Source of the DNA: Bacteroidales bacterium
Lineage (GTDB): Bacteria; Bacteroidota; Bacteroidia; Bacteroidales; VadinHA17
Assembly: GCA_025358455.1 (NCBI GenBank)
Contig: JANYJP010000108.1
Span: 1-64,000, forward strand
DNA length: 64,000 nucleotides
Direction of reading: 5' to 3'
Shown piece by piece: positions 57,838 to 63,588 of this stretch. The translations under genes and the position numbers were made by a program. The notes beneath the pieces were generated by a model that worked only from the letters and a program-made list of their open reading frames with translations, made no database searches and was not told the DNA's origin. The first letter of the stretch is position 1, and every line of letters begins with the position of its first letter.

Positions 57838-58293
57838 GTGGAATTAAAAAGTTTATTTGTCGAATCCGGTGTTAAAACCCCGCAAATTGATCTGAATCAC
57901 CTTACCGGTGAACTTATCTTTTCCGGAAAGTCAATCCCTGAGAATGCAGCAGGCCTGTACGAGAATGCATATAAATGGGTTCTGGAATATATAAAGAAAC
58001 CAAGACATACTACTAATCTGAGGTTGAACCTTGAGTATTTTAATACTTCATCTTCAATCTGGCTTGCAAAAATTGTTAAAGCACTCTGTTCTATAAAAGT
58101 CAGTGAATATACACTCCTTATTCATCTGTATTTTGATATAGAGGAATTTGACAACATGGAAGTTGATGATCTTAAGGATGCATTGAGTCCTATTATTGAT
58201 ATGATAGGCACTCCAAGTCTTAGTCTCGGCATTAAGATATACGGAACCGATGATAAGGGAGAAATCCTGAAAGAGTCAATGGTCCTTATCTGA
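57838..58293 (+). CDS. SiaC/DUF1987-like regulatory phosphoprotein (GTG start)
   Basis: TPQIDLNHLTGELIFSGKSIPENAAGLYENAYKWVLEYIKKP...LRLNLEYFNTSSSIWLAKIVKAL. Confidence 0.75.
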   Translation: MELKSLFVESGVKTPQIDLNHLTGELIFSGKSIPENAAGLYENAYKWVLEYIKKPRHTTNLRLNLEYFNTSSSIWLAKIVKALCSIKVSEYTLLIHLYFDIEEFDNMEVDDLKDALSPIIDMIGTPSLSLGIKIYGTDDKGEILKESMVLI

Positions 58294-58478: not shown

Positions 58479-59984
58479 ATGCGAGCAGTATTCATTGTTT
58501 TGCTTTCAATATTCACTATTATGGAAACTTATTCTCAAAATAAGACAGTTGACAGACTGCCTGTTGCAGCAGGAAGATTTTATTCTGCGGACAAAGAAAC
58601 ACTGACAAAAGATCTATCCGGGCTTTTTAAAAACTGTAAAAAAACAACCGGAGACCAGATTGTAAGGGCTATAATCAGCCCACACGCAGGTTACGTCTTT
58701 TCGGGTGAAATTGCTGCTGCTGCATTTTCGTCAATACCAGTTAATTCAGAATATAAAAACATTTTTATTATAGGGTCGAGTCATGTTATGGCATTTGATG
58801 GCGCATCAGTTTATAATACAGGAGATTACATTACTCCTTTGGGTAAGATAGCAGTTAACAGGGAAATCGCAAATACACTCATCCGTGATAACAAAGTATT
58901 CAATTTCCCGATAGATGCGCATGAGCAGGACCACTGTATTGAAGTTCAAATACCATTTATTCAATATTATTTTAAGAACACTCCAACTATCGTCCCGATT
59001 ATTTTAGGAACCAATAATGAGAGGACAATAAAACATATTGCCGAGGCTTTAAGACCATGGTTCACTCCTGAAAATCTTTTCGTTATCAGCAGTGACTTTT
59101 CACATTATCCTCCTTATAATGAAGCCATTGAAACAGACAAGCTGACTGCTCTGAGTATTGAATCAGGTGATCCTGTAACTTTTCTGAACACCCTTAAAAA
59201 GAATTCTGAAAAACAGATCAAAGGATTAGTTACCAGCATGTGCGGATGGACGTCAGGCTTAACCCTTATTTATCTGGCTGAAAAAAACGATCAGCTTGAA
59301 TATAAGCTTATTGATTATTGCAATTCAGGCGATTCACAAATCGGTGGAAAAGATGAAGTGGTTGGCTATAATGCTATTGTGTTAACTGAAAAAAAACAGA
59401 ACGCAGTTAAAAAACCAGAATTGAAGGAAGAGCTTTTATTCACAGAAGAAGAGAAATCACGGCTTTTTACATTGGCAAAAAACAGTATACAGGCTAGGCT
59501 TGACAATAATAAACCTGAAGCAGCGGTTGAGACAGATATGCCTTCAAAATTTATGAAACCACTGGGGGCATTTGTAACTCTTAAAATCAATGGCGCTTTG
59601 AGAGGGTGTATAGGACGATTCATCTCATCAGAACCGCTTTATGAAGTTGTAAAAGCATCGGCAGTTTCATCAGCGTTCGATGATCCGCGATTTCCTCCAC
59701 TTACTAAGGAGGAATTTAAAAAAACCCAGATAGAAATAACTGTTCTCGGGCCTTTAAAGAAGATAAATAATATCAATGAAATAATTCTCGGCAGGCATGG
59801 CATTTATATTAAGAAGGATAACAAGTCAGGAACGATGCTTCCACAGGTCGCAACTGAAAACGGCTGGACTGTTGAAGAGTTCCTCGGATATACTTCGCGT
59901 GATAAAGCCGGATTGGAATGGGATGGGTGGAAAACTGCTGAAATCTATATATACGAAGGAGTTGTGCTCGAAGATAACAAGTAG
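58479..59984 (+). CDS. AmmeMemoRadiSam system Memo (AmrB) - AMMECR1 (AmrA) fusion with N-terminal signal peptide
   Basis: Signal MRAVFIVLLSIFTIMETYSQ; Memo motifs AGRFYSADK, ISPHAGYVFSG, HEQDHCIEVQIPFIQ, SSDFSHYPPY, CGW; AMMECR1 motifs GAFVTLKINGALRGCIG, AFDDPRFPPLT, DKAGLEWDGW. Confidence 0.9.
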   Translation: MRAVFIVLLSIFTIMETYSQNKTVDRLPVAAGRFYSADKETLTKDLSGLFKNCKKTTGDQIVRAIISPHAGYVFSGEIAAAAFSSIPVNSEYKNIFIIGSSHVMAFDGASVYNTGDYITPLGKIAVNREIANTLIRDNKVFNFPIDAHEQDHCIEVQIPFIQYYFKNTPTIVPIILGTNNERTIKHIAEALRPWFTPENLFVISSDFSHYPPYNEAIETDKLTALSIESGDPVTFLNTLKKNSEKQIKGLVTSMCGWTSGLTLIYLAEKNDQLEYKLIDYCNSGDSQIGGKDEVVGYNAIVLTEKKQNAVKKPELKEELLFTEEEKSRLFTLAKNSIQARLDNNKPEAAVETDMPSKFMKPLGAFVTLKINGALRGCIGRFISSEPLYEVVKASAVSSAFDDPRFPPLTKEEFKKTQIEITVLGPLKKINNINEIILGRHGIYIKKDNKSGTMLPQVATENGWTVEEFLGYTSRDKAGLEWDGWKTAEIYIYEGVVLEDNK

Positions 59985-59989
59985 TAAAC

Positions 59990-62413
59990 ATGTATCATGT
60001 TATTGGAACAGGGTTAACTGCAATACTTTTATATTTAATCAGTTACACATTATATCGACTCGATTATTATTCTCTTCAATTTCATAAAAAGTTCTGGAAC
60101 TCGCTACTTGCAATTTCATTTCTGGTCACTGCTCTTGCCGGATTATTTATGGCACTGCAGGTTACCTATAAATGGAACATTCCTTTTGTCAAATCTGTTC
60201 TTAAATGGCATGTGGAATTTGGAATAGGTATGGCTGTAACCGGTATTTTCCATCTCATTTGGCATCTCAGCTATTATGGTAAGATATTAAGTAAGGAAAC
60301 TAAAATAGCTGAACCAGAATCTTTTCAGAAGCTTCCATTCTCCGATATCGGTTATAACCTTTTTATTGTTGGTTTTGTCAGTTCGTCAATCCAGTTTTTG
60401 CTTATAAGGGAAATGATGAATATTGCGGGAGGATATGAGCTGATTACAGGAATATTTCTTGCTTCCTGGCTGATAACATCCGCTATTGGAGCATTACTGG
60501 CAGGGAGATCAATTATTAACGATATCAGAAAGATCAATCTCGTTTTCACTCTCAGTCCTGTCATTTCACTTTTACTGCTCTTTTTATTATCGAGGCTTTT
60601 CCTTAACAACGGTGAAACGCCATCATTCCTGGTAAGCATCATTTACACTTTTCTTGTTCTTATTCCTTTCTGTCTGGTATCAGGTTTTACATTTGTAAGA
60701 CTGATGTCAATTGCCAGGTCAGTCAATAAATTTAATCCGGGAAAATCTTTTTCAATTGAAACTGCAGGGGGTATTGCATCAGGATTAATTATTGCATTTC
60801 TCACCGCCGGAGTCCTCAATAACTACCAGTTGCTGCTGACAATAATTCTACTGGCAAATGTTTATGTATTTCTGACCTTCAGGATAATTGATTTCAAGAT
60901 AAAGATATCAGTCAAAATACTGACTATCATCATTATATCGGCAATAATAACAAAAAATCCGGACACTTTTTTCCGGCATATATTACTTCCGGGTATTACT
61001 ATTACAAGCACAGAAGATACTCCATATGGCAATATAACAAAAGGTACATACCAGGGTGATGAAAGCACCTATTATAATCAGAGACTTCTATCCTATAAAA
61101 ACGATGTGGCTGAAAGAGAAGAGGATATTCATTATGCAATGCTTCAATGTGAATCTCCTGAAAAAGTTGTTTTAATATCAGGATCACTTCAGTCTCATCT
61201 TCCGGAAATATTTAAATATCCGGTTAAAAAGGTTACTTATATTGAACGCGATCCGGCTCTTACCAGATCAGAAAAGCTGGTTCATGATTCCTTACGGGCA
61301 GCACTGGTAATTGAGAATAATGATGCCTTCAGGTATATCAGAAGCCAGACTGAAATGGTTGATGTTGTAATTCTGCTGATTCCACCCCCATCAACTCTCC
61401 TTTTGAACAAGTACTACACAACTGAATTCTTTGCTGCAGTAAAGAATAGGCTAAATCAGGGCGGCGTATTTATGTGCTCGCCCGGTCCTGGTGACAATTA
61501 TCTTAACAAAGAATCTCTAAATCTGTATTCATCAGTCTTTAACAGCCTGGAAAAAGTATTCAAAAATGTGAGACCCATCCTGGGTAATAAGCTATATTTT
61601 GTAGCATCAGATAAAGAACTTTCTGTTTCAGTTTGTCATCTTTCCGATGAAAAAAAAATCAGAAATATTTATGTCAGTTCTGACTTTCTTGATGACGCCC
61701 TGATACTGAATAAATCAAATGAAATAATATCTCTGATGGACAGAGGAGTCAGACAAAACACTTCTGCTTTTCCGGTAGCGTGTTTTCATTTTCAATCGTA
61801 CAATATAAGCAAAAACCTTGGTGAGAAGACCATTGCAATAGCTCTGCTGATCATGCTCTTCGCATTGCCTGTACTGGCAATAAAAAGAAAAAATCTTATC
61901 ATGTATTTTAGTGCTTCAGCATTGGCTGGTTTTGAGATTATAGTTTTATTAACCCTGCAAATAATCATTGGAAACATGTATCAGCTTACAGGGCTGATAA
62001 TAGCCGGACTTATGGCTGGACTTGCATTCGGGGCCGGAATAAATTCAAGTTTCCTTAATACATTATCTCCGCGGATGAAATGCACTATTCTGGTTTGCTT
62101 TTACGTTTGTATAGGTATGACCTTTAATTTTATTCTTGAGGTGCATGGTGGAATTCCTGCAGTAAGTATACTTCTTCTTTTAGTTTTTTTACCGGCACTT
62201 CTAACCGGAAATATCTTTCGTGAACTTACAATTATTGAGTCAGATCATGCTGCTTCGTCAGCGATTTATAGTGCGGATCTGGCCGGGTCAGCCCTTGGAT
62301 TTATATTTGTGTCGGGGTTTGCAGTTCCGTTATTCGGAATCAAGGTCTCAATCTTTTTATTATCAGCACTTATATTTACCGGGATTCTGTTTGGAACAGT
62401 TAGGAACAAATAG
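59990..62413 (+). CDS. Polytopic membrane protein with central spermidine-synthase/methyltransferase-like domain
   Basis: Multiple TM segments at both ends; central VTYIERDPAL...NDAFRYIRSQTEMVDVVILLIPPPSTLLLNKYYTTEFFAAVKNRLNQGGVFM. Confidence 0.75.
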   Translation: MYHVIGTGLTAILLYLISYTLYRLDYYSLQFHKKFWNSLLAISFLVTALAGLFMALQVTYKWNIPFVKSVLKWHVEFGIGMAVTGIFHLIWHLSYYGKILSKETKIAEPESFQKLPFSDIGYNLFIVGFVSSSIQFLLIREMMNIAGGYELITGIFLASWLITSAIGALLAGRSIINDIRKINLVFTLSPVISLLLLFLLSRLFLNNGETPSFLVSIIYTFLVLIPFCLVSGFTFVRLMSIARSVNKFNPGKSFSIETAGGIASGLIIAFLTAGVLNNYQLLLTIILLANVYVFLTFRIIDFKIKISVKILTIIIISAIITKNPDTFFRHILLPGITITSTEDTPYGNITKGTYQGDESTYYNQRLLSYKNDVAEREEDIHYAMLQCESPEKVVLISGSLQSHLPEIFKYPVKKVTYIERDPALTRSEKLVHDSLRAALVIENNDAFRYIRSQTEMVDVVILLIPPPSTLLLNKYYTTEFFAAVKNRLNQGGVFMCSPGPGDNYLNKESLNLYSSVFNSLEKVFKNVRPILGNKLYFVASDKELSVSVCHLSDEKKIRNIYVSSDFLDDALILNKSNEIISLMDRGVRQNTSAFPVACFHFQSYNISKNLGEKTIAIALLIMLFALPVLAIKRKNLIMYFSASALAGFEIIVLLTLQIIIGNMYQLTGLIIAGLMAGLAFGAGINSSFLNTLSPRMKCTILVCFYVCIGMTFNFILEVHGGIPAVSILLLLVFLPALLTGNIFRELTIIESDHAASSAIYSADLAGSALGFIFVSGFAVPLFGIKVSIFLLSALIFTGILFGTVRNK

Positions 62414-62430
62414 TAGTTTTATTAATTATT

Positions 62431-62443
62431 GGAGCGTCGCTCC
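62431..62443. promoter_or_regulatory. Short GC hairpin GGAGC-gtc-GCTCC directly upstream of the radical SAM gene
   Basis: Perfect 5-bp GC-rich stem, 9 bp before the ATG. Confidence 0.4.
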
Positions 62444-62451
62444 TTACTAAG

Positions 62452-63588
62452 ATGCAAAATAAAAAATATGATATAAGCAAGCGTGATTTTCTAAAGAAAT
62501 CACTGGCATTATCAGCAGCTTTTATGTGCTTCCCCTGCCGGGCCGTTTTTGCGGAAACGGACTCTGAAGAGCAGGGAATTTACAAAAGAATTGCAATGTT
62601 CCAGGAGGAAACCGCACGTGGAATAATGTGCAGAATCTGCCCCAACGAGTGTGTCCTGAAAGAGGGCGAATTAAGTAAATGCAATAACAGGAAAGTTCAT
62701 AACTCTAAGTTATATACACTAGCATTTGGAAACCCATGTTCGGTAAATGTTGATCCTGTTGAGAAGAAACCATTATATCATTTTCTGCCAGGATCGAGAG
62801 CGTTCTCTATTGCAACCGCGGGCTGCAACCTGGTTTGTCTGAATTGCCAGAACTGGACTATTTCACAAACCAGTCCGGATAAAACCAGGAATGCCGATCT
62901 TATGCCTGAGAAAGTTGTTGAAGAATGCCTTAAAGCAAATTGTGCTTCAATAGCATACACATATTCAGAACCTGTAACTTTTTATGAATATGTTTTTGAG
63001 ACAGCCACACTTGCCAGAAAGGCCGGCATAAAAAACATAATAAAATCTAATGGTTATATAAATCCGGAACCTCTTAGAAAGCTTTGCAGTGTTGCTGATG
63101 CAGCCAATATTGATCTTAAAGCATTCAGTGAAAGCACTTACCTGAAACTAACCGGAGGAAAGTTACAACCTGTTCTTGATACGCTGAAGATTTATAAAGA
63201 AATGGGAGTCTGGCTTGAGATAACCAATCTGGTAATTCCCACGTGGACCGACAACCTGGATGATATCAGGAAAATGTGCCGGTGGTTAAGTGATAATGGA
63301 TTTCAAAATACTCCTTTACATCTCAGCAGGTTCTATCCTCTTCATAAACTTGAACAATTGCCGCCAACGCCTGTTGAAGTACTCAATAAGGCATACGCCA
63401 TTGCAGCTGAAGAAGGGTTAAAATATGTTTATACAGGCAATGCTCCTGGTAATGAAATGGCTGATACTAAGTGTCCCTCATGCAATTCTACCATTGTGGT
63501 CAGACAAGGATTCAGGATAGCATCAAATAATATTACCGGGGGGAAATGTAATAAATGCGGAAATAAAATTGATGGTGTTTGGAATTAA
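62452..63588 (+). CDS. amrS: AmmeMemoRadiSam system radical SAM enzyme (AmrS-like) with Tat-like leader
   Basis: SKRDFLKKSLALSAAF leader; CRICPNEC; ATAGCNLVCLNCQNWTISQ (CxxxCxxC); YTYSEPVTFYEY; C-terminal zinc-ribbon CPSC...CNKC. Confidence 0.92.
   Translation: MQNKKYDISKRDFLKKSLALSAAFMCFPCRAVFAETDSEEQGIYKRIAMFQEETARGIMCRICPNECVLKEGELSKCNNRKVHNSKLYTLAFGNPCSVNVDPVEKKPLYHFLPGSRAFSIATAGCNLVCLNCQNWTISQTSPDKTRNADLMPEKVVEECLKANCASIAYTYSEPVTFYEYVFETATLARKAGIKNIIKSNGYINPEPLRKLCSVADAANIDLKAFSESTYLKLTGGKLQPVLDTLKIYKEMGVWLEITNLVIPTWTDNLDDIRKMCRWLSDNGFQNTPLHLSRFYPLHKLEQLPPTPVEVLNKAYAIAAEEGLKYVYTGNAPGNEMADTKCPSCNSTIVVRQGFRIASNNITGGKCNKCGNKIDGVWN

Follow-up and report, generated by a model that had tools for sequence, protein, structure and literature searches.

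The window, the whole 64,000-nucleotide stretch of Bacteroidales DNA that was analyzed, carries three adjacent genes on its + strand at positions 58479-63588, which encode a Memo-AMMECR1 fusion, a membrane protein of 807 aa and an AmrS-type radical SAM enzyme and are separated by gaps of 5 bp and 38 bp. We label the membrane protein, the product of the middle gene of this trio, MEM. All coordinates, gaps and domains of the trio were verified against the window sequence, including the 5-bp gap that a first-pass annotation had placed between the fusion and the membrane protein (the fusion ends at 59984 and MEM starts at 59990). The same annotation had proposed a three-gene locus of the AmmeMemoRadiSam type, which proved correct, as the NCBIfam models for AmmeMemoRadiSam A, AmmeMemoRadiSam B and the radical SAM enzyme (TIGR04335, TIGR04336 and TIGR04337) all matched the trio above their cut-offs. 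A chance or artefactual grouping of the three genes is ruled out by the family profiles and by synteny. The host is a 3.4-Mb MAG that is 95.7% complete, and its close relatives are uncultivated Bacteroidales from fens, lake sediment and digesters, as judged from record names only. Directly upstream of the trio lies a gene for a SiaC-family regulatory phosphoprotein (window 57838-58293, + strand); SiaC-like genes also precede the trio in the other members of the genus that were examined (L045, L046, L048, L050 and L061), but not in other families.

The first gene (58479..59984, + strand, like all features below) encodes a 501-aa protein whose homologues share the same ATG start. It begins with a predicted Sec-type signal peptide, MRAVFIVLLSIFTIMETYSQ (58479..58538), with the Bacteroidota-type end ...SQ and a cleavage point that is inferred. 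The Memo domain, which has the extradiol-dioxygenase fold (58560..59378), matched TIGR04336 over aa 26-301 with E 2e-68 (230.4 bits against a cut-off of 26), and the AMMECR1 domain (59469..59963) matched TIGR04335 over aa 328-494 with E 8e-47 (158.8 bits against a cut-off of 99). Profile and family alignment confirmed that the AMMECR1 domain keeps the invariant LRGCIG-type motif (C377) already recognized in the first-pass annotation. For the Memo domain, PHAG, HEQDH, DFSHY and CG had been listed as metal-site residues. The metal ligands of human MEMO1 are H49, H81 and C244, whereas D189 and H192 are not ligands (PMC11081632), and the equivalents of the human Fe ligands are therefore H69 (PHAG), H102 (GSSHVM) and C255 (MCG, matched by motif only), all invariant in the family alignment. 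Thus, PHAG and CG hold, HEQDH and DFSHY do not provide ligands, and H102 of GSSHVM is the third ligand equivalent, which had been missed. The presence of a signal peptide ahead of the two domains was likewise upheld, since a hydrophobic leader was found in 75 of the 75 classified Memo fusions on MEM loci, and in three more by eye. Some of these leaders contain a lipoprotein-like Cys, and in some relatives the fusion is probably a lipoprotein.

The third gene (62452..63588) encodes a 378-aa AmrS-family radical SAM enzyme (TIGR04337, 342.5 bits against a cut-off of 220). Its N-terminal Cys motif (C60-x2-CP-x2-C67...C77; 62629..62682), its radical SAM CX3CX2C motif (C125, C129 and C132; 62824..62847) and a C-terminal CxxC...CxxC ribbon-like motif (C341, C344, C366 and C369; 63472..63558) are invariant in the alignment. 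They are preceded by a putative Tat-type leader, MQNKKYDISKRDFLKKSLALSAAFMCFPCRAVFAETD... (62452..62559), in which SKRDFLKK represents the KR, not the RR, form of the twin-arginine motif, an assignment that rests on leader statistics and on literature precedent for KR. TtrB was called the only known native KR Tat substrate in a 2019 review (PMC6708511), and KR is functional in mutants of other Tat signals (PMC1182353). Radical SAM proteins encoded beside MEM start with [S/T/D][K/R]RxF[L/I/V][K/R] followed by a moderately hydrophobic stretch, and nearly every one of these ~80 proteins, with identity down to ~50%, has a [KR]RxF[LIVFMA] leader; most members have KR, and a true RR motif occurs in five loci (L043, L054, L055, L114 and L115). 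Because the motif is kept so widely, with RR in five loci, the resemblance of the leader to a Tat signal is not due to chance. By contrast, cytosolic radical SAM homologues of the same phylum begin directly at the Cys motif, and none of the cytosolic paralogues has a Tat motif. The Tat-like leader described in the first-pass annotation therefore stands at the sequence level, in its KR variant.

The dominance of the KR form in a whole protein family is unusual when set against the single native KR substrate named in the literature (PMC6708511). TatC was not found in the MAG of the window, 95.7% complete as it is; since 31 of 35 genus-mates have TatC, its absence is likely an assembly gap. The same genome (G000) contains a second AmrS-family gene, on contig C35:66458-67417 (L036:5435-6457), whose product is leaderless and 40% identical to the exported copy, and which is adjoined by neither a Memo nor an AMMECR1 gene. 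In three other loci (L039:318-2489, L133:9478-11649 and L146:9410-11581), a second, leaderless radical SAM protein is encoded right after the copy with the Tat-type leader, and it could be either exported by piggy-back or a cytosolic partner.

MEM (59990..62413) was analyzed by profiles, hydropathy, repeat detection and structure prediction. Hydropathy across 84 relatives gave 3 + 14 helices, comprising an optional N-terminal 3-TM domain (59990..60325), TM1-6 as a first MFS-like half (60353..60880; hydropathy and repeat) and TM9-14 as a second (61901..62398; hhalign, AlphaFold and fold matches). TM1-6 and TM9-14 are homologous and form a parallel repeat (hhalign, 97.7%, E 1.4e-12). AlphaFold modeled the whole protein with a pLDDT of 87 and a pTM of 0.85, and the C-terminal half with 90.5 and 0.88, respectively. 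The best 50 PDB fold matches of the C-terminal half were overwhelmingly MFS transporters, with a probability of ~1 but a TMq of at most 0.59 and an E value of only 0.05, and the MFS_1 Pfam model matched 5 of the 84 members, the best at E 4e-4. In its architecture, MEM is a 6+6 TM duplication of the MFS-like type, with two extra helices that bracket an inserted SpdSyn-fold domain. The number of K+R per loop was 1.7-5.8 on the inside and 0-1.2 on the outside, with one exception of 2.4, over the 84 sequences, the b-c loop being the weakest point. On the strength of this alternation (the positive-inside rule), the SpdSyn domain is predicted to face outside, and an independent second argument for the same placement comes from the parallel repeat, given the extra helix on each side of the insert.

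The N-terminal 3-TM domain is absent in 23 of the 84 relatives, which keep the rest of the protein. Where it is present, His32, His74, His88 and His92 are 95-100% conserved, and DUF4405/cytochrome-like matches recur, all of them weak and sub-threshold, so that a b-heme is possible but its assignment is not established. These histidines, with the 14-residue spacing of His74 and His88 that is typical of transmembrane b-hemes, and the recurrent cytochrome-like matches are what would support MEM being mainly an electron supply or scaffold, its N-terminal domain passing electrons outward through heme b while the MFS/SpdSyn part docks the partners. We regard this role as improbable, given that the 23 relatives mentioned above do without the domain and that the potential of a b-heme generally lies much above what the cluster of a radical SAM enzyme usually needs. 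As one component of the system, the His-rich domain could still offer the only electron route that seems plausible, yet not one available to the relatives that lack it.

The inserted domain (60995..61801) was identified by sequence and fold comparison. MEM matched PF01564 (Spermine_synth) over aa 380-529 with E 1e-10, and the domain matched solved aminopropyltransferases with E 3e-23 by sequence and E 1.5e-10 by fold (Foldseek). D445 is kept in 84 of 84 relatives and E419 in 83 of 84; judging by position, they are the counterparts of the acids with which SpdSyn binds adenine and ribose. By contrast, 81 of 84 members have lost the first catalytic Asp of D-x-T-D-P, and the acid of GGGD/EG is lost as well. 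The roles of catalytic and adenosine-contact residues in MEM are assumed here from what is known of spermidine synthase. Of the spermidine-synthase-like core seen in the first-pass annotation, the fold is therefore confirmed and the catalytic residues are not, and this loss of the active site rules out MEM as an ordinary spermidine synthase. It also weighs heavily on the idea that MEM is a membrane-bound aminopropyltransferase making a polyamine for the system, which has the Spermine_synth match and the fold in its favor but must accommodate the missing catalytic acids and a score of 57 bits against 472, far under the SpdSyn equivalog cut-offs; we consider it very improbable. The simplest reading of the conserved residues, made without a ligand model, is that the putative function of the domain is non-catalytic adenosyl binding.

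SpdSyn domains on MFS-like helices are also found in PRK03612-type membrane polyamine aminopropyltransferases (TM + SpdSyn, ~510 aa) and in MFS-SpdSyn proteins of ~850 aa. MEM differs from both: its SpdSyn domain, which has lost catalytic aspartates, interrupts the protein between two homologous 6-TM halves, and MEM is separated from them by score (at least 396 bits for MEM against at most 119). Examples of the larger proteins, with 847-855 aa, the helices first and the SpdSyn-like part C-terminal, were seen in four loci without adjoining Memo genes (L157:1675-4218, L158:1328-3877, L159:1198-3765 and L160:1193-3736). MEM also resembles 14-TM major facilitator transporters, which have two homologous six-helix halves and two central helices, and the fold matches of its C-terminal half, at E 0.05 only, are mostly MFS structures; unlike them, it carries a 270-residue SpdSyn domain on the central helices, predicted to lie outside, and in most members an extra N-terminal 3-TM domain.

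To what extent MEM is tied to its neighbors was apparent at three taxonomic scales. Within the genus, MEM was detected in 34 of 36 genomes (counting that of the window), and the trio had the same order and the same partners wherever flanking DNA sufficed; further families of the same order retain the trio amid different surrounding genes. In an even sample of the phylum (278 genomes), MEM was found in six genomes besides the window's own, with scores of at least 396 bits, the next-best matches being other SpdSyn proteins with at most 119 bits. All six carried a Memo-AMMECR1 fusion of ~500 aa on the contig of MEM, in the orders Memo-MEM-rSAM, Memo-rSAM-MEM or rSAM-Memo-MEM, shuffled in three. 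Fisher's exact test for MEM and fused Memo gave p = 3.5e-10, and 2.5e-6 when restricted to Memo-bearing genomes; these values ignore kinship and, because related genomes are not independent, are only descriptive. Among named public MEM loci with 2.5 kb of flank on each side, 49 of 52 had both partners. The exceptions were L118 and L119, where the radical SAM gene with the Tat-type leader is on another contig, and L142, where the fused Memo gene is on another contig; the L119 genome yielded no Memo. A merely sporadic association of MEM with Memo and radical SAM genes, which the first-pass annotation had named as grounds for abandoning its proposal, is thus ruled out by the six phylum genomes, the public loci and the Fisher test. 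In some members of the genus, MEM and the radical SAM gene are separated by a gene-sized insertion (L049:7824-10220, also L085 and L087), with both partners intact; in L049 it encodes a membrane protein on the opposite strand.

MEM was absent wherever the AmmeMemoRadiSam system was cytosolic, among the genomes examined, which rules out MEM as part of a general AmmeMemoRadiSam system that would include the cytosolic forms. On loci without MEM, 3 of 11 Memo fusions had a hydrophobic leader, and one of these loci (L067) has MEM on another contig. Three genomes (G042, G049 and G098) contain, besides the exported trio, a separate leaderless Memo/radical SAM set without MEM, in two cases with AMMECR1 also seen. 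In G058, which is 99% complete, the fused Memo and a radical SAM enzyme of the exported lineage are both leaderless and there is no MEM. The Memo tree places G058 inside the exported group (immediate support 95/63), favoring secondary loss over a primitive cytosolic state, but its placement in the radical SAM tree is less clear and leaves the primitive reading possible. In G009, MEM and the Tat-leader radical SAM enzyme were lost together while the exported Memo fusion was kept. From these patterns, we conclude that MEM follows the exported radical SAM enzyme. Exported Memo without MEM does exist, in G219, G009 and G038; in G219 the exported fusion (L057:4036-5538) is accompanied only by a leaderless radical SAM gene elsewhere in the genome.

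By the statistics given above, the leaders behave as secretory, with hydrophobic stretches on Memo and the Tat motif on the radical SAM enzyme, and the proposal of a cell-envelope version that includes the membrane protein as a further component gains support from leaders that track MEM and from the conserved linkage. These statistics, all computed from sequences, cover the conserved trio, the leaders, the predicted topology, the retained active sites, the loss of SpdSyn catalysis and the tie of MEM to the exported form. That the enzymes of the trio are exported and constitute an extracytoplasmic version of AmmeMemoRadiSam is a strong inference made without experiment, and we consider it highly likely. 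If instead the leaders did not translocate, the radical SAM enzyme and Memo would be cytoplasmic or only N-terminally anchored and the SpdSyn domain would face the cytoplasm. KR in place of RR, the moderate hydrophobicity of the leader, the cytoplasmic location of SAM and reductant and the TatC gap would fit such an arrangement; it is hard to reconcile with a leader motif maintained in so many divergent proteins, as RR in some loci and never in cytosolic paralogues, with the Sec-type leader of every Memo fusion encoded next to MEM, and with the charge bias and parallel 6+6 repeat that put SpdSyn outside, and we give it little credence.

We propose that the Memo-AMMECR1 fusion would leave the cytoplasm via Sec, and that the Fe-S radical SAM enzyme would acquire its fold and its clusters in the cytoplasm before being exported by Tat. 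Tat transports proteins in the folded state with their cofactors in place, and the chemistry would therefore call for just this division, in which Memo uses Sec and the Fe-S enzyme Tat. Once exported, the radical SAM enzyme would need SAM and would release 5'-deoxyadenosine and methionine. MEM would be an MFS-like transporter, built on the 6+6 TM repeat, whose outer face bears the SpdSyn-fold domain for binding adenosine nucleosides, and it would serve the exported enzyme by moving SAM outward and/or 5'-deoxyadenosine back, while the substrate of the exported enzymes would lie in the cell envelope. For a transporter that occurs only with the exported enzyme and has an adenosyl-binding domain facing outward, the best explanation, we infer, would be that it supplies SAM or retrieves 5'-deoxyadenosine. 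A functional analogy only is offered by SLC33A1-type acetyl-CoA transporters, in which, as is generally known, an MFS carrier supplies enzymes across the membrane with a cosubstrate that contains adenosine; the comparison of MEM with these extends only to a generic MFS fold match. To our knowledge, there is neither a SAM pool nor a low-potential electron donor outside the cytoplasm. That export takes place and that nucleosides are bound is inferred, as is the nature of the transported species, the substrate and the electron source. Taken as a whole, an extracytoplasmic system with MEM serving the exported enzyme seems to us evenly poised between right and wrong. The inferred export of SAM and/or uptake of 5'-deoxyadenosine by MEM falls slightly short of an even chance, and the fullest version, in which the radical SAM enzyme works outside, MEM with its repurposed SpdSyn-fold domain exports SAM or swaps it for 5'-deoxyadenosine and the outcome is an unknown modification of the cell envelope, is put forward tentatively and with some doubt.

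An extracytoplasmic system could also use MEM to move a substrate or product, for example one that is polyamine-like, nucleoside-like or lipid-linked, instead of SAM, with SpdSyn as an outward domain that binds or modifies the substrate. It draws on the same linkage and topology evidence, SpdSyn folds bind polyamines too, and MFS transporters are diverse. We nevertheless think it unlikely, although not negligible, in view of adenosine-contact residues that are kept where the aspartates of the aminopropyl/amine side are lost, and of cytosolic versions that lack MEM, though presumably handling the same substrate. Supply of SAM or retrieval of 5'-deoxyadenosine remains our preferred, if inferred, role for MEM.

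By domain tests, the trio is an AmmeMemoRadiSam system: all three families are represented, and the Memo metal residues, the AMMECR1 motif and the radical SAM cysteines are kept. It is new by its location and by the added MFS/SpdSyn protein, differing from the known system in the fusion of Memo to AMMECR1, in the export leaders and in an almost always linked fourth functional part, MEM; the unfused, leaderless form is also present in this phylum and, in G042, G049 and G098, alongside the exported form within one genome. Memo and AMMECR1 are conserved to humans, and their molecular function is unresolved. Our literature search returned no established biochemical activity for the AmmeMemoRadiSam family. 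Burroughs et al., in 2019, are said to have associated the contexts of Memo with the modification of bases and isoprenoids; the study, a J. Biol. Chem. paper on Memo contexts, is cited in PMC7159879. In the search, which did not cover that study, we came across neither an exported AmrS nor a periplasmic radical SAM enzyme, nor a comparable exporter of SAM.

An exported version narrows the search for the function of Memo and AMMECR1, because its substrate has to be accessible beyond the cytoplasm and genetic work comes down to a three-gene operon. Radical SAM chemistry is normally confined to the cytoplasm, and an extracytoplasmic radical SAM trio would therefore be unexpected. Provided that the radical SAM enzyme does operate outside, cells must carry SAM across the inner membrane, a step for which MEM is a specific candidate that can be tested. 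Should this be true, it would establish extracytoplasmic radical SAM chemistry together with a new type of SAM transporter, and would disprove what is tacitly assumed, namely that enzymes of this class belong to the cytoplasm.
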